Shown here in pieces: positions 1 through 33,751 of a stretch of 64,000 nucleotides of DNA. The position numbers and the translations under genes are program-made. The stretch comes from Arthonia radiata (Eukaryota; Ascomycota; Arthoniomycetes; Arthoniales; Arthoniaceae). Every line of letters begins with the position of its first letter. Within the stretch, counting starts at the first letter, position 1. The notes below the pieces were generated by a model. The model was not told where the DNA came from. It did not search any database and saw only the letters and a list, made by a program, of their open reading frames with translations. The stretch covers positions 1,562,480-1,626,479 of the forward strand of contig PSQN01000012.1 of assembly GCA_002989075.1 (NCBI GenBank), read 5' to 3'.

Positions 1-257
1 TAAGTTACGGGTTATCTGGCCCCTATCAAAAGAACAGATATCTAGTAAGTCCTGCACGGGCCGCTAGACTTAGATATATAAGCTAGGATCCCTCTAGAGG
101 ATTCTAGCTAACAAGACAGACAACACAACAACAGCTTCTCTTTGTTACTGAGTATTGTACCTGTAACAAGCCTAAGTATTGCACTAGTCCCAAGCTAGTC
201 TCGTCTTCCTACTCTTTGTAGTAGTATCCTTCTTCTTCCCTGCACCCTTTTTTAACA
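1..257 (+). repeat. 5' LTR of Ty1/copia element (truncated by window edge)
   Basis: This stretch is repeated at 3442-3686, about 3.4 kb downstream in the same orientation, which makes the pair the LTRs of one element. The copy ends in TTTAACA at about 257. Comparison with the downstream copy suggests that about 12 bases are missing to the left of the window. It carries an extra stretch of about 24 bases (near 155-178) absent from the other LTR, where a short motif around 'agtattg' is duplicated. It is clearly richer in G and C than the downstream LTR. Almost every mismatch is C or G here against T or A there, so this copy is close to the un-mutated state. Confidence 0.8.
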
Positions 258-1560
258 CCTCTAAGCGACGTCAATAAGGTGTCTAACTACCGGCCGCCCC
301 CCTCGTAGGTTTAGAATAATTAGGATGTAATCTAGATGTAGGGCAGGGAGCAGTTAGATAGCAAAAAGGGCCCAAATAGGCTCTACTAGTGTTTAAGCTA
401 ATTATTGAGGAGACCAGAAAGAAATGCGTCTACTAGAGGGAAGATATCCTCCTAGAATCGTAGCCTTCCCAAATAGGCAATATTCCGTCCCAATTCGCTA
501 TCGGAACGTCCATGCATCACAATATAGCTGCCAGCTATTCTTCCTCAAACAATATATTATTCTAATTTATTTTGTTTTACGCTTAAATACGTAACCTTTT
601 GAGCTTACTCTTTAAATCTATAATCGCTGCTTTAGCAGCTTCGCGCTACCTTTTCGCCGTACAAACAACTTTCTTCTCTTCTACTAAACGTTTGCGTTGC
701 TTCTAGAGAACATCTAATACCTATAAGTACTAAGAATAGATACTCTAAGCTAAAATAAGTTAAAACTAACCTAAAGAAAATAAACATAAGATAAAAACTA
801 ACTATCTTTTAACAATAGACGGACGTTATATAACTTCTTATCGCGAATATATATAAAATACGATACCTTTCTAAACTTTAGAACATACTTCTTATCTAAG
901 TAAGAGCAACGGGAACACAAAGGCATCTCTCGACTATAGACTTCAGCAAGAACAGTATTAATCTTAAGCGCTTTGTTAGCGTTAAGAGCCTTCTTAACTT
1001 TAGATATAACGACTTATAGAACTGAATCTGTTATAGAGCGATAACGAGGTTTTAATGTTTCTAGAGCCGTTAAGGACGATTAGCCTTAAAAAGAAGACCT
1101 TATATTACGATCTTACTATATTAGGCTAGTATAAGGCTAAGCGCAGCTAGCCTTATTAGAGTATTATATAGTATACCCGACGACTCTAATATAGTAACGT
1201 CGGCGACGTCGCTATATCGCAATAGAATCCCGACTACGCGACAAAAAGACTGTTAAAACCGTTAAATACAGAAAGATATACCTTTGTACCTTAAACTATA
1301 TAGCTAAACTAATAGCCGACCTTAAAATAAACTTTACTCTGTTAACTTAATATTTAAATATAAGTTTCTTAACTATATTTAAGTAATATACTTTATCTTC
1401 TATCTACTTTAGTTAAGCCCCTCTTACCTTTTATAATCTATCTCATCTCTTCTGCCTTTTAATCTCTAGTACACAAGATATCTACTATTAAGGTCGACAA
1501 GCATATAAGACAAGTAAGCCTTAGTTCGGTTCTCTCAGCGACCGGCGTTATATAGACGCA
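258..1560 (+). other. Degraded internal region of copia element (gag/integrase side)
   Basis: This is AT-rich sequence full of stop codons in all frames, between the 5' LTR and the recognisable reverse transcriptase. In a complete Ty1/copia element this part would hold gag, protease and integrase. I could not trace any of these domains by eye, so their presence is inferred only from position. The first 250 bases after the LTR keep some GC-rich words, and mutation becomes heavier from about 540. No intact host gene is visible. Confidence 0.5.
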
Positions 1561-3168
1561 ATATAGTCGGAGCTCAAAGAGCTAGCTAACTAAGAAACCT
1601 AGATATTAATCGAGCTGCCGCCGAATAGAAAGGCGCTAAAAGAGCGCTGGGTACCAAAGATTAAGTACTCCCCGGAGAGCAAGCCGATTTTTAAAGCCTG
1701 CTGGATAGCTAAGGGCTGCTAGCAAAGACCCAGCCTTAATTTTATAGAGACCTTTATAAATATAGTAAATTTAATTATCTACCGGCTTATACTAGTCTTA
1801 GTAGCAGAAAAAGACTAGAAAATAAAGCAATAGGACGTAAAGTTAGCTTATTCTAACGTAAAGTTAGATAAGATTGTCTATATCGAGCAACTAACTAGCC
1901 TATCTAACGGAACTAATAAAGTTTATCGAATAAAGAAGGCCCTTTACGGTCTAAAACAGGTCGGCCGACAGTAGAAAGCCTATCTTCGAGAATTACTAAG
2001 GGAAATAGATTTTAAATTCCTAGTATCTAATTAGTCGGTTTATATTCGAAGAACCGGAAAGCAGGCAATTTTAATTGTCTATGTAGACAATATATTAGCT
2101 GTATCCAATTCTACTGAAACAATCTTTAGAATCTACCAGGAACTAAACAAGAGTCTTATAATTAAGGGCTTAGGAGACGTTAGTAAGTTCCTAGGAATTA
2201 AAATTATTCGAGATCGCCCGGCGAAAACAATTCGCCTAGACTAGTCGACTTATTTGACTAAAATTTTAACTAAATACTCGAAGAAAAACGGCCGAATGCC
2301 CGGGAAAATACTGCAACCTGTCGGCTCAAAATTGGTACCGAATCCTAACTAAGCTAGTAGTACGGATATTTCTAACTATTAGCAATAAATTGGGTCGATT
2401 TTGTATCTAACAACAAAGACAAGACCCGATATTGCCTTTATAACTAGCCTACTAGCCCGATACATATCGAATTCTAGCGAGGAGCACTAAAGAGTTTTAA
2501 GTAGCCTTTAGGCTTACTTAAATAAAGCTTCTAACCTTAGCCTTTACTATAAATCTTCCTTAATAGACGGTATAACCGGCTATTGTAACGCAGATTGGGG
2601 GGGAAACCTCGGCACTAGAAGATCGACTACCGGCTATATCTTTCTACTCAGGAACGGAGCCCTTAGCTAAAATTCGAAGCTACAAAAAACGGTTGTCTTA
2701 AGCTCTTATAAGGCCAAATATATAGCCCTTAAAGAAGCTATAAAGGAACAGTTATTTATCCGATTAATTGCTACTAAACTGTCTAGGATTTTCAAAGAAA
2801 ATTCGATTACTACCGTTTTAGCGGATACTTTTAAAAAGTCTGCGGATAAAAAGACTCGGCGGGCTCTAACACACCAGATAAGCATATATTTGCTCGGGCA
2901 AGCCGGTTAAATTAGACCAGAGACCCTGGTTTTGTCGGTAAAACTGTTACTTACCGACAGCAATTCGATAAAAGAACTTACAAAAAACCCTACCTTCTGA
3001 GCTAAATCTAAGCATATTGATATACAGTATTACTATGTTAGAGAAAACGTTCAGGCAGGCCAAATAGAGCTTAAATACGTTTCTACAAAGAAACAATTAG
3101 CAGACAGTTTAACAAAACCGATTGACTTGGCTAAAATACTAACGTTTAGAACTCAAATTAGCTTATAA
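1561..3168 (+). pseudogene. Ty1/copia reverse transcriptase-RNase H relic, RIP-inactivated
   Basis: One plus-strand frame reads through a copia-type polymerase with many in-frame TAG/TAA stops where W or Q is expected. Recognisable blocks in order are: KERWVPKIKYSPESK (start of RVT_2), a WIAKGC-type block, DVKLAYSN (first catalytic Asp), YRIKKALYGLKQ, YVDNILA near 2080-2100, KTRPDIAF, GYCNADWGG (RNase H), SSYKAKYIALKEA and the closing KHIDIQYYYVRE...VSTKKQLADSLTKP block. The frame ends at TAA 3166-3168. The second Asp of the canonical YVDD is Asn here, as one G-to-A change would give. Stops such as '*DVKLAY' for MDV-type and 'A*RV' for W/Q codons match repeat-induced point mutation. The element cannot make a functional protein. 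Confidence 0.9.
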
Positions 3169-12119: not shown

Positions 12120-14284
12120 TCATGCCTCCTTCACTAGATAGCCGCCGAAGTCAGAGTAGGTGCCGGTCCATGATGAATGTCGGCACGCATCCAGTAATGT
12201 CCGCGCCCGCGGATCGAGCGCTGGCTCAGATTGGTCAAATTCGTCAGAGCCATGTTCGCTGCTGTCACGAGGCAGCGCTTCGTTGTTCTTAGCATGCTGC
12301 AGGTCCAATTCAATTACCAAGGATTTCAGATCCATGACTTGATCCTCGTCTAAAGCGACATGAGCGTCCGACAGGCCAAGCACATCCCTCCACCGGTACA
12401 TGCATGCAAAGACCCCACGGTCGTTCCAATCTGGCGTTCGTATGATCAAGCTTCGAAGAGTGTTTGCGTGCCGACATAGGAAATCGTCCAGCGAATAGGA
12501 ATTGATTGGCATAGTGTTAAGATACATCAAACGGAGATGCGTCCAGAATTGCTCCTTCGCACAGGTCTCGAAGAAGTCTACGGGTTCTTCATCGTCGTCC
12601 TCAATGCCAGGTGCCACGCCACCAGCTAGCGACAATTCTTGAAGTGACGTTGTGACAGACAGAAAGCGACCCCATTCGAGACCAAGCCCGGCGCTTGACC
12701 AAGGGGAAAATATTTCAATGTGTAGCCTTGTCACATGGCACACGTTGCTCCTGGCAAGAGTGTTGGGAATCGCATGTGAAGTGAACCCCGCAGGCTGAGG
12801 CTCGAGCAAATGAAGGCGATCAATCTTCGCGGCATTTGCGCATTCCAGGGCGCAAATGAGCGCCAAAAATGCTGTGTAATGGCAAAATTCGAAGGAGGGT
12901 CGACGTAGATTGTCGTTGTCGACACGCAGGGCGTGAAATAAGCCTGGATAACGGTGGCCACTGGGGTAATTCCTCTCTTGATCGTCGCTACAATGGTCGT
13001 CGCTATCGTCCTCTATGATGAGGCTCTTGAGGGGACGATGAAGTCCAGGAAGCGTGGTTGAGTGGCCCACGGTGAATGCTGATAGGCTTGGAAATCTGGC
13101 AAGGATGTTGTGCAAAATCACCTGACCATTCTTACTGATCAGGAAGCTTGCGTATCCTTCACGGCTGCTGGAAAGCTCATTGACTTCTGCAACTCGATCT
13201 GGCACATACGCACAGGACCGCTTTACGCCAGCAAGTTCGCCTCTCAACCCCATCAAGACGATTTGCAAAGCGCCCCACTTCGCTCCGTATCGTGTATACC
13301 ACACGTTAGAGCGCATGTACTTGACGGTGAATCTGCTGGAGCTCGGTCGGTGGCTAGTGTCTAGGAAACTGAAGCTATGAGCAAGCGTCAGTAGAAATGT
13401 TTCTGAACAGCAATCACATCAGCAACAATTCTTTCAGAAAACAAGTCAAGTGGAGAGTGCTAGCGGATGATTCTTTGACGAGGTCGTGATGTGATGCAGA
13501 ACGGAACATGTGGACGCTATGAGACTTGTTTGGGACGAAGATGCGAGCACAGCCTTCTCAGGAGTTCGTTCGGGGTTGTAGCAAAGCAAGCTTAGGCAGC
13601 GCGCTTGCTGCCAAGCGGTAGAATTACCGGTACAGAACAAAATGCGTGGATGCTCTGAGGCTTACCTTAATTCCCATGGCAGGCTGCGAAGATGGTCGCG
13701 GTTGCTGATAAAGTCGAAAGCTTCAAGAGCGCCAGGGTCGAGGGTGAACGTAGCCTTCGAGAATGGATGTTCCTTGCGCTCACGCGTCCACGTCGTCTAC
13801 GGAGCGGTCAGTATGTTCCGGTTTGCACGACTCGTGAAGCTTTGGCTCGCTCCAGAGTTCACAGCAGTGAGCTCTCCAGCCTTGAGACTTTATGCACAGA
13901 GCATTGAGGTAACGCCAGCAGATAAGCCGCTCTAGCGCAGACAGAGGCTGTTAATGGAAGCTGACATTTGCTGAAAGCTGGCCTAGGACGTGATCATCTG
14001 GCACTGTCATTTTGAAGTGGCAGTATCTGTAACTAGCAGCTCCTCCAGACAATGCATGTTCAAGGTTTGCTCCCGGGACATGAGTGTTCACAAATCTTGA
14101 AACAAGGATCGAGCCTGAAGAGAGTTACGCGGCTTACCATGCACCTCAATATAGTTTCGTTCAAGCGCTTGCAGGTTGCTCGCAGTGGTTTCAATGTGTC
14201 ATCGACCAAGCGAGCATGCTGCACTATCTGGTACAGTATGTCTAAAGTCGGACAATACTGATGAACATCACCACCAGGTCCCAC
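12120..14284 (-). CDS. F-box-like protein, family copy A (three exons, two long introns)
   Basis: The model is complement(12120-13374, 13666-13796, 14138-14284), 1533 nt, 510 residues. Exon 1 holds an F-box-like segment (LDILYQIVQHARL...LKPLRATCKRLNETILRCM). Exon 2 runs through HPFSKATFTLDPGALEAFDF to RSLPWEL. Exon 3 carries KWGALQIVLMGLRGEL and a leucine-spaced repeat region with an acidic insert (EDDDEEP). The same blocks in the same order occur in copies B (52.1-53.9 kb) and C (54.7-56.3 kb), which supports all three models. Function is unknown; an SCF adaptor is the usual guess for this architecture. Introns of 291 and 341 nt are far longer than the 50-60 nt typical here. The 291-nt intron is made of two repeat units (separate entry). 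The start codon is the first in-frame ATG and could be further upstream. Confidence 0.65.
13375..13665 (-). repeat. Two tandem introner-like units forming intron 2 of gene A
   Basis: Read on the minus strand, the intron starts GTAAGCCTCAGAGCATCCAC. Its first 141 nt align with unit 1 of the GST intron at 32328. Twenty bases of the 5' box (gagcatccacgcattttgtt) match 17 of 20 there. 'ggcagcaagcgcgctgcc' corresponds to the GST core 'ggcagctagcgcgccggc', and 'aggctgtgctcgcatcttcg' to 'gagctgtgctgacatcttg'. The second part (150 nt) starts again with tctcatagcgtccacatg and ends at CTGACGCTTGCTCATAG, a good branch and acceptor. The intron is thus a head-to-tail pair in the sense orientation of its gene. 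Confidence 0.75.
13797..14137 (-). repeat. Long intron 1 of gene A, possibly two or more decayed introner-like units
   Basis: The donor is GTAAGC and the acceptor CCGTAG with an ACTGAC branch site. At 341 nt this intron is about six times the local norm. Plus-strand words resembling the complement of the 5' box occur near 14051 (aatgcatgttcaagg) and about 13895 (gcacagagcattgagg), about 155 bp apart, which would fit two degraded units. The similarity is weak by eye, so the assignment rests mostly on length and on the clear pair in intron 2. Confidence 0.35.
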
Positions 14285-31707: not shown

Positions 31708-32226
31708 AGGTCGTATGTCTTGGCGACGACCGAGAAGGGGCTGTTCCCACAGTTACGATCTGGATGCGTAAAATGAGGTAGACAGTCGGAATTGGTGCCA
31801 CTGTTCAACGTCCCTCAACATCGCGTTCAAGTCAAGTCGACTGTATCACCGATTGCTTTCGTTCTATCACAGAATAGTCACTGTCTCTAATGTTCAGAGA
31901 ACCCATATACTACGCGGATGCCGCCATCGTAAATACAAAATATTACGGGTGGAAGGTCTGGCTCGCGACTCGTCGTGCAAAGCGTCGTGCAGGTACGCAG
32001 ACAAGCTTCACGGCGGAAGCTCCCCGCGCCTACTTCCATGCTTGATCATCAGCTGACTGAGCTACTTAGCGAGCAAGATAAAGCGCCGCGCAAGTGACAT
32101 AAAGGACCGCATCCCATATCATCCCAGTGCCGGACCGGACAGAACAGGAAGTTTCACTGGAGTGTCGATCGGGTTCAAGAACACGAAGAAAGAAAAGGAA
32201 GAGGCCAACCTAACCGAACTACAACC
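31708..32226. other. Intergenic spacer and GST promoter
   Basis: There is 519 bp with no gene. Positions 32140-32220 form a purine-rich leader (aagaaagaaaaggaagagg) directly before the start of the transferase. Confidence 0.4.
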
Positions 32227-33751
32227 ATGTCCAGCTCTGAAACCAAGCACACCACCATCGCCACCACTGCTGCCGAAGATTCAAACAAGCCCCCTACGCA
32301 TATGATGCGACAGGCAGATCAAGACGGGTAAGTCTTGGAGCATCCACACATTCCGTTCTGTTGCCTCAAACCCACCATTCGGCAGCTAGCGCGCCGGCGT
32401 TGTCTCGAAATACTTTGTTTGAAACCGAAACAAACTTCAGAACGAGCTGTGCTGACATCTTGTCTCTAGGTACGTCTTCAAGCATCCGCACACCCAGTTC
32501 TGGTGCCGCAAAGCTCGTTGTCGGGCAGCTAGCGCGCTGGCGTTGCCCTAGATAGCCTTCTTTGAATACTGAACAAACCTTAGAAGCGGCTGTGCTGATG
32601 TCTTTTTCTTGATTGAGTCTTAGAGCCTCCACACATCCCATTCTATTGCCTAGCAATATTTGTCAGGCAGTCAGCGCGCCGGCGTTGTCTTGATTACTTT
32701 GTTTGGAACAGCGAATGAACTTCAGAAGCTGCTGTGCTGACACCTGGTTGCTAGTCAGTTCCGACGTCAAAATGCACAGTTCCGCAACTTCATCTCCAAG
32801 GATCCAGACTCAGACTTCCCTGCTGAGAAGGACCGATATGTCCTCTACATCAACTACGGCTGCCCGTGGGCGCACCGAGCGAACATTGTGCGCTCGCTCA
32901 AAGGCCTCGAGGACGTCATCCAGCTCGTCGTCACGGGTTTCGATCTTACAGAGAAGGGATGGGTGTTCGACGGCAAGGACGGCAGCGCTGCCAAAGATCC
33001 CTTGTACGGCTTCACTGAAATCCGCCAGCTGTACTGGAAGGCAGACCCTCAGTACAACCTGCGCTACACCGTCCCGATGCTATGGGACAAGAAGCGCGAG
33101 ACCATCGTGTCGAACGAGTCCTCCGAGATCATCCGCATGTTCTATACTGAGTTCGACCATCTGCTGCCAGAACATCTGCGGGAGACCAACAAGCGAGGCG
33201 GTGGACTATTGCCGGCGAAGCTGAAGGGTGAGATTGAGCAGATGAACGGATGGGTGTACGACAGTGTCAACAATGGCGTCTACAAGACCGGATTCGCCGG
33301 CACCCAGGAGGCTTACGATGGACACGTGTGGAAACTCTTCGAGGGGTTGGACCGGCTAGAGAAGCATCTCGAGGATAGAGGCGGGCCGTATCTGTTCGGG
33401 GAGCATGTGACCGAGGCGGATGTCAGGTGAGTTCTTGCTGATGACTATCGGGGTGAGTACAAAGGAAACATGAGTGCTAACGAGCTTTATAGGCTCTACA
33501 CGACCCTGATCCGGTTCGACGCGGCATACTATACCCTCTTCCGGTGCAATGTGAAGATGATCCGACATGACTACCCGAAGCTCCACAAATGGGTGAGGCG
33601 CCTGTACTGGGACGAAGGAGAGGCCACGAACGGAGGCGCGTTCAAGAAGACCACGTACGTGGATTGCTTCAAAAAGGGTTATGCAATCGCGAGCAAGATC
33701 ATGATCGTGCCAGCCGGACCAAAGCCGGATATCATGCCCTTGGAAGCTTAG
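32227..33751 (+). CDS. Omega-class glutathione transferase / glutathionyl-hydroquinone reductase
   Basis: The model is join(32227-32327, 32755-33426, 33493-33751), 343 residues, total in frame. The first exon encodes a polar leader ending ADQDG. Exon 2 begins [14 protein letters not shown] and contains the active site '[12 protein letters not shown]' with C70. This CPWAHR signature defines the ECM4/YqjG glutathionyl-hydroquinone reductases, which use the cysteine to reduce glutathionyl-quinone adducts. The all-alpha C-terminal domain follows ([33 protein letters not shown]). The usual localisation is cytosolic. Intron 2 is an ordinary 66 nt. Intron 1 is 427 nt and consists of three tandem copies of a 142-nt intron-like unit, described separately. 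Confidence 0.9.
32328..32754 (+). repeat. Tandem triplicate of a 142-nt introner-like element forming GST intron 1
   Basis: The units are 32328-32469 (142 nt), 32470-32611 (142 nt) and 32612-32754 (143 nt). Each has the same ordered boxes: gagcatccacac near its start, a GC core ggcagctagcgcgccggcg, ctttgtttgaa, and gctgtgctgacatc near the end. Unit 1 on its own is a complete intron, from GTAAGT through a GTGCTGAC branch site to CTCTAG. Unit 2 follows directly with GTACGT, so the first junction is AG|GT, a zero-length exon. Unit 2 has lost a clear AG end and unit 3 has lost the GT, while unit 3 provides the final CTGAC and CTAG acceptor. The outermost signals restore the reading frame of the host gene. 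Confidence 0.88.

Follow-up and report, generated by a model that had tools for sequence, protein, structure and literature searches.

How can a single intron come to consist of several intron-like elements standing head to tail? This question is raised by a GST gene in a 64,000-nucleotide stretch of Arthonia radiata DNA (the window), whose first intron of 427 nt (32328–32754) is made up of three introner-type units, here called u1, u2 and u3 (Table 1). The gene is of the Xi-class/glutathionyl-hydroquinone reductase type; its exon 2 aligns with solved Xi-class GSTs and is in frame from 32755 once the 427 nt are removed. Retention of the intron would lead to an immediate stop, the frame of exon 1 reading GGG TAA at the donor, and u2 and u3 contain stops in this frame as well, so that they would be non-coding if retained.

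Table 1. Coordinates of the GST gene, of the second array in the window and of the G family. Positions are those of the window unless an L-number is given; L-numbers are fetched genome regions, WIN stands for the GST array of the window (32328–32754) and A type for the 142-type units.
Feature	Position	Strand	Basis and remarks
GST exon 1, coding part, 101 nt	32227..32327	+	translation and open frame; ends in codon phase 2 (...GAC GG|)
Unit 1 (u1), 142 nt	32328..32469	+	complete intron-like introner: GTAAGT, GCTGAC at 32451-32456, CTAG
AG|GT junction u1|u2, intact	32469..32470	+	sequence reading
Unit 2 (u2), 143 nt	32470..32612	+	other subfamily: GTACGT donor, GCTGAT at 32594-32599, acceptor lost (CTTGA)
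Unit 3 (u3), 142 nt	32613..32754	+	third subfamily: donor lost (TTGAGT), GCTGAC at 32736-32741, CTAG closes the whole intron
GST exon 2	32755..33426	+	Pfam GST_N_2, GST_C_2; 3ppu_A E 3.4e-65; 3' end read off the sequence
GST intron 2, ordinary, 66 nt	33427..33492	+	branch point GCTAAC; outside the introner family
Second two-unit array, decayed	13375..13665	-	A-type (142-type) unit 13665-13530, then E-type unit 13529-13375
G family sites	L023:625-783; L023 about 930-1058; L026:3142-3300; L059:2090-2248; L101; L102		

A first-pass annotation of this DNA had proposed a triplet in GST intron 1, and pairwise alignment of the units bears this out. Identities are 0.73 (u1–u2), 0.75 (u1–u3) and 0.70 (u2–u3), and the corresponding alignment scores of 158, 169 and 138 lie far above the maxima of 62, 74 and 66 reached in 500 dinucleotide-preserving shuffles per unit pair. 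An ungapped repeat finder recovered the same three-copy families at the array; TRF at default settings did not report it at 32328–32754. The annotation had given the unit sizes as 142, 142 and 143 nt; the number of units stands, the order has to be corrected to 142, 143 and 142 nt, one boundary having been off by one base. Its description of u1 as a full intron, directly abutted by u2 with a new GT donor, agrees with the joint, which reads CTAG|GTACGT, and its idea that this one AG|GT junction would permit stepwise splicing fits the sequence at 32469|32470, where the AG|GT of a recursive splice site stands inside the intron. Absent from the annotation was the state of the u2|u3 joint: it reads TCTTGA|TTGAGT, so that AG and GT are both gone. 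With AG|GT at the u1|u2 junction, the 427-nt intron can, as predicted from its sequence, be removed either whole or as u1 (142 nt) and u2–u3 (285 nt), in either order. Intron 2 of the gene (33427–33492) had no match to the family in profile searches. In the second array of the window (13375–13665, minus strand) the junction CCCAA|ACAAG has lost both splice sites, and the array reads as a single intron-like stretch of 291 nt, GTAAGC...CATAG.

The units belong to a family that is spread over the genome, as the annotation had supposed when it recommended a genome-wide search. A 21-nt core, with up to three mismatches, was found at 111 places and in the reversed control once; similar copies in unrelated genes, as expected of introner-like elements (ILEs), are thus present. 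The 427-nt query had at least 46 matches in the 33.5-Mb genome (40 of 130 candidates scored), and an alignment of 46 units yielded a 142-nt consensus, GTAAGT...GTGCTGAC...CTAG. With GTAAGT, GCTGAC and CTAG, u1 has the layout of a U2-type GT–AG intron with branch point. The highest identity between units was 0.91 (first 101 units). E-type units were recovered poorly by the general model and were therefore modelled separately, at 156 nt. A further family, G, is about 158 nt long (GTAAGTCTACAGCC...GTGCTGACACGTAGCGCTCTAG), has at least 43 genome matches (40 of 48 candidates scored) and makes exact pairs of its own at L101 and L102. A third intron type (GTAAGTTCAACAGCGTCCACAC...) was seen at L016:2282-2440 and L098:468-626 (minus strand, reverse-complement coordinates); at both places it abuts 142-type units at AG|GT, and its two copies are 0.72 alike. 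A profile search with D units was set aside, the model having drifted into the general family. RNA secondary structure was dropped as a hallmark of the family, since there was no consistent signal: nine of ten units folded within about 1.7 sd of their shuffles, one had a z below –2, and the consensus fold has two pairs. The one outlier among the ten, L040:2002-2143 (minus strand), folds far better than its shuffles (z –4.2).

The genome regions came from three sources. L009–L045 (37 regions) were chosen by similarity to the three-unit query and are biased to arrays, and L086–L100, obtained with array and composite queries, are array-biased too. L046–L085 (40 regions) came from core-pattern places not yet fetched, half of them (20 of 40) as stretches of about 600 bases, which may cut chains; 100 of the 111 core places were listed, and 15 further listed places were left out of the sample. 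Chains were called from unit scores of at least 25. For the identity tests, units scoring below 40, covering fewer than 110 model positions or running off their stretch were left out.

With the E-type model added, 118 chains were found at 93 sequences, a sample that is partly array-biased. Two or more units are present in 41 chains, at 36 of the 93 sequences (29 chains of two units, eight of three, three of four and one of five), and 77 of the 118 are units standing alone. Among the 40 core-pattern regions, ten hold multi-unit chains, a fused composite described below being counted. The 58 junctions, eight fused composites among them, read AG|GT within 6 nt in 34 cases, GT only in four, AG only in two and neither in 18. 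When the listing of the multi-unit chains was read by eye, no unit was recognised as split by another. Joints also cross the types, as A|E, E|A, A|G and G|E: G comes after A at L059, where the donor is lost, and at L062, where there is one extra G, and the G|E joint at L042 is AG|GT. The L042 locus carries a long decayed series of three unit types (120–2760, plus strand), in which G-G-E-E-A is followed by an exon-like stretch, which we take to be aldo-keto reductase-like, and then by many decayed units; it is possibly a dying gene.

Reading frames and flanking protein domains are consistent with removal of these chains by splicing. In a test set restricted to chains that begin with GT and have AG not more than 8 nt from the end, both sides had an open frame of 60 codons or more for 20 of 57 chains when spliced, for seven and eight when the frame was shifted by +1 and +2, and for three when unspliced; the multi-unit cases (n = 16) gave seven, four, two and none. 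The contrast weakens at lower cut-offs, to 25, 16, 14 and 10 of 57 at 40 codons and to 43, 38, 29 and 28 of 57 at 25 codons (spliced, +1, +2, unspliced). Of 20 flank pieces taken from 11 loci, 12 had Pfam matches and eight gave nothing; neither side of L009 matched. A GH28 domain spans the dimer at L022, with profile positions 154–212 on one side and 226–320 on the other, VPS9 is interrupted at profile position 74|75 by a solo unit at L027, and the four-unit chain at L012 lies between ABC2_membrane_7 (weak, just below the cut-off) and ABC2_membrane (strong).

Are the members of one chain related to each other more closely than to the rest of the family? Among 141 units at 89 sequences, the 33 abutting pairs of the 142-nt family have a mean identity of 0.647, exactly that of shuffled partners (0.647, sd 0.007), and a version of the test based on a multiple alignment gave 0.616 against 0.616. 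The best matches of arrayed units reach a mean identity of 0.796. Since joined neighbours are mostly not sister copies, mobile introns seem to have been strung together into longer ones.

The partners themselves look like introners. Among 49 intact solo units, five have a donor-like 3' flank and two an acceptor-like 5' flank (background 0.000 and 0.006), and all seven partners are family-like: an E unit downstream at L030, L034, L044 and L090, an E unit upstream at L051, the third type at L098 and a 36-bit family match at L073. The outer flanks of the 118 chains gave seven intron-like cases, L098 counted again. Four of these show family similarity (L016, L087, L098 and L042, where the partner is a G unit), and three, at L011, L066 and L095, are donor-like without it and may be exon sequence. 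A genome-wide search for the pattern CTGAC-N4-25-YAG|GTRAGT gave 47 hits where the reversed control gave 20; according to the hit lists, 20 of the 47 fall on introner places and the other 27 do not. The same pattern with CTAAC, the branch point as in GST intron 2, has nine hits against 18. The excess for CTGAC, the 20 of 47 at introners and the lack of an excess for CTAAC indicate that the surplus of abutting introns consists largely of introners. No clear pair of an introner and an abutting ordinary intron was found in the 49 solos, the flanks of the 118 chains or the junction patterns.

Some pairs recur in other genes. The u2–u3 pair of the window is found again at L009, with 85% identity over 283 nt, and there the junction still reads TCTTAG|GTACGT. 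Since it recurs in another gene with an intact junction, u2–u3 was probably already a pair beforehand. Likewise, L029 carries counterparts of units 2 and 3 of L012 (0.84 and 0.87), with a similarly degraded joint; over three units the two loci are 81% identical, the third unit reaching only 0.70. When the masked flanks of 78 sequences were compared by blastn, 21 rows resulted, and not one of them joins WIN to L009 or L012 to L029. Permutation tests for common ordered pairs gave P values of 0.002, 0.07, 0.15, 0.03 and 0.008 at identity thresholds of 0.70, 0.72, 0.74, 0.76 and 0.78, and with the multiple alignment 0.21, 0.019, 0.001 and 0.056 at 0.72, 0.75, 0.78 and 0.80. As these results are mixed over the thresholds, we place weight on the named recurrent cases. 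Two further candidates were rejected: L010/L086 as a common dimer (per-unit identity 0.68 for the u1 units and 0.91) and the E-E-A series of L039, L042 and L054 as one moved trimer, in which the units at the same place are not the closest.

The clearest of the recurrent cases is a fused composite, in which an E unit without its last part, i.e. branch point and acceptor, is joined to an A-type unit without its GT. It is present at eight loci (L011, L023, L035, L042, L046, L056, L087 and L097), and by alignment the deletion is identical at all eight. The missing part of E is present in the lone E units of L024 and L088, in L044, where E follows A, and in the E|A pairs of L051 and L039, which have an intact junction. 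As the composite profile was derived from six of the eight composites, their match to it is by construction; the other two, L087 and L097, turned up in addition. When the flanks of these six loci (without L087 and L097) were compared, only L023 and L042 matched, and this within G units. Because one common deletion is found at all eight loci, the fused E–A pair has, as far as alignment can tell, most likely spread as one longer introner.

Taken together, GST intron 1 is in our reading a chain of different introner members, joined end to end and removed as a whole, and we consider it likely that they were joined before or during insertion. Joining at this stage meets three observations at once, namely exact 3'–5' joints, partners across types that are as if random, and the lack of clear ordinary partners. 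Homology-guided insertion fails, because the partners are as if random among introners, and insertion into AG|GT splice junctions of any kind accords poorly with the lack of clear ordinary-intron partners. We infer an intermediate of RNA or cDNA: intron RNAs or cDNAs from different subfamilies would be linked exactly end to end, and the linked chain would integrate at one site, the joining taking place before or during integration. RNA joining by itself would yield the head-to-tail order. Later the junctions would decay, as u2|u3 at GST has done in losing AG and GT, and elsewhere a fused product of such a loss has most likely gone on to spread as a longer introner of its own. Joining could alternatively come about when a reverse transcriptase jumps end to end between templates. 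Excerpts of PMC12403724 propose ligation of intron RNA into double-strand breaks, and the joining step could be an extension of this proposal to more than one RNA per break.

The main rival is serial insertion, in which each introner reverse-splices alone into an AG|GY target that is offered by the boundary of an existing introner. The target preference is real: solo introners lie at AG|GY in eight of 49 sites against a background of 0.011 (1.1%), the same bias as reported for ILEs in excerpts of PMC8469720, and random-looking partners and exact AG|GT joints would be expected as well. If intron boundaries in general served as targets, however, ordinary introns should be among the partners, and there is no clear case beside the three unexplained flanks; nor does the CTAAC junction pattern occur in excess (9 vs 18). 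Moreover, the pairs recurring in unrelated flanks would need movement of pairs besides. We therefore regard serial insertion as a rather unlikely, though serious, explanation.

The reverse direction, in which a multi-unit element is ancestral and the solos are derived from it by single excision and movement, is distinctly improbable. AG|GT junctions would allow the excision of single units, and composites do recur. A fixed ancestral unit order had nevertheless to be rejected as a general rule, as E stands on either side of A, 12 times upstream (eight of these being the fused composite) and six times downstream. Furthermore, most chains (77 of 118) are solo, and partners vary by locus.

Multiplication in place, which the annotation had inferred for the triplet, would explain the head-to-tail order and the near-equal lengths of the units, but for the GST array this reading was rejected, as the closest relative of each unit is at another locus: L011 for u1 (0.91), the first unit of L009 for u2 (0.87) and the second unit of L009 for u3 (0.86), whereas the abutting units of WIN reach 0.69 and 0.66 in the same alignment. 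In a FastTree phylogeny u2 is the sister of L009 unit 1 (support 0.90) and u3 of L009 unit 2 (0.81); the node joining u1 and L011 has weak support (0.12) and lies within a clade of 16 members supported at 0.91. No unit in the 33 pairs of the 142-nt family has its neighbour as closest relative, and none of the 30 neighbour pairs placed in the tree forms a cherry. The GST array contradicts tandem duplication of one introner unless gene conversion overwrote the units one by one, and we give this very little credence. The annotation's idea seems to hold at a few other loci. E–E pairs are reciprocal best matches at L042 (0.79) and L054 (0.75), not at L039 (0.59), the G–G pair of L042 has 0.81 against 0.63–0.71 to the other compared G units, and among the first 101 units, two non-adjacent ones of L052 match each other best (0.73). 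The G–G pair of L101 has 0.80, equal to the value of its first unit against L026, and that of L102 has 0.63. Because of the exceptions at L042, L054 and L052, duplication in place does, judging from unit identities, occur at some loci, and the GST array bears no sign of it. That the array is a satellite or a chance repeat instead of an intron can practically be dismissed in view of the GT...GCTGAC...AG layout and of the GH28 and GST frames, which continue over the L022 dimer and over the window array.

The founding papers on ILEs are reportedly those of van der Burgt (2012) and Torriani (2011). A literature search over titles and abstract openings among the listed matches found no description of abutting introner chains. 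The following comparisons draw on excerpts of the papers cited. The ILEs of Dothideomycetes (Collemare 2015, PMC4457414) resemble the present family in being similar U2-type introns in unrelated genes, in forming several families and in comprising old and younger copies. In the excerpts of this paper neighbouring ILEs are 145–626 bp apart with exon between, whereas here units abut exactly, subfamilies and families are mixed and a fused pair has spread; active ILEs are 98–99% identical, against a maximum of 0.91 here. Other intron duplication, in-gene tandem duplication included, makes up less than 1% of the single gains in Z. tritici (PMC4457414).

A second related system are the sister [D1,2] stwintrons of Hypoxylaceae and Xylariaceae (excerpts of PMC8469720, PMC12403724, PMC9024468, PMC5639578 and PMC7138796). 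There, too, two introns at one position need consecutive splicing, which is predicted here, and stwintrons propagate as a unit and become single introns through deletion or loss of internal signals. The internal intron of a stwintron splits the external donor after its first G, whereas here whole introns abut at AG|GT, and CTAG|GTACGT leaves both donors whole; unlike stwintrons as these excerpts describe them, the present chains run to four or five units with varying partners. A third comparison is with DNA-transposon introners: TSDs, TIRs or both mark 59.2% of the judgeable families, ascomycetes being the outlier (excerpts of PMC9860276). Such elements are likewise mobile introns spread over the genome; here, no inverted repeats were found when they were sought in 32100–33000.

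Recursive splice sites, also known as zero-length exons or ratchet sites, consist of an AG|GT junction at which the donor is regenerated. The junctions described here have the same AG|GT but appear to have arisen as a side effect when mobile introns were joined, and whichever of the joined introners is spliced first, the mRNA would be the same.

Intron gain is an old question, and the mechanism of fungal introners is disputed between reverse splicing, repair with intron RNA and transposition. Chains joined at AG|GT, the lack of clear ordinary partners and a composite at eight loci limit the mechanisms that are possible. Tentatively, and with about as much doubt as confidence or slightly more, we suggest that this fungus has or had a step that joins introns 3' end to 5' end, by which a cassette of several introns could be gained in one event, the loss of inner sites then giving rise to longer families. 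If this is true, introner families evolve by concatenation of modules. The chains and the composite also offer a way in which small introners grow into longer introns and AG|GT recursive junctions arise.
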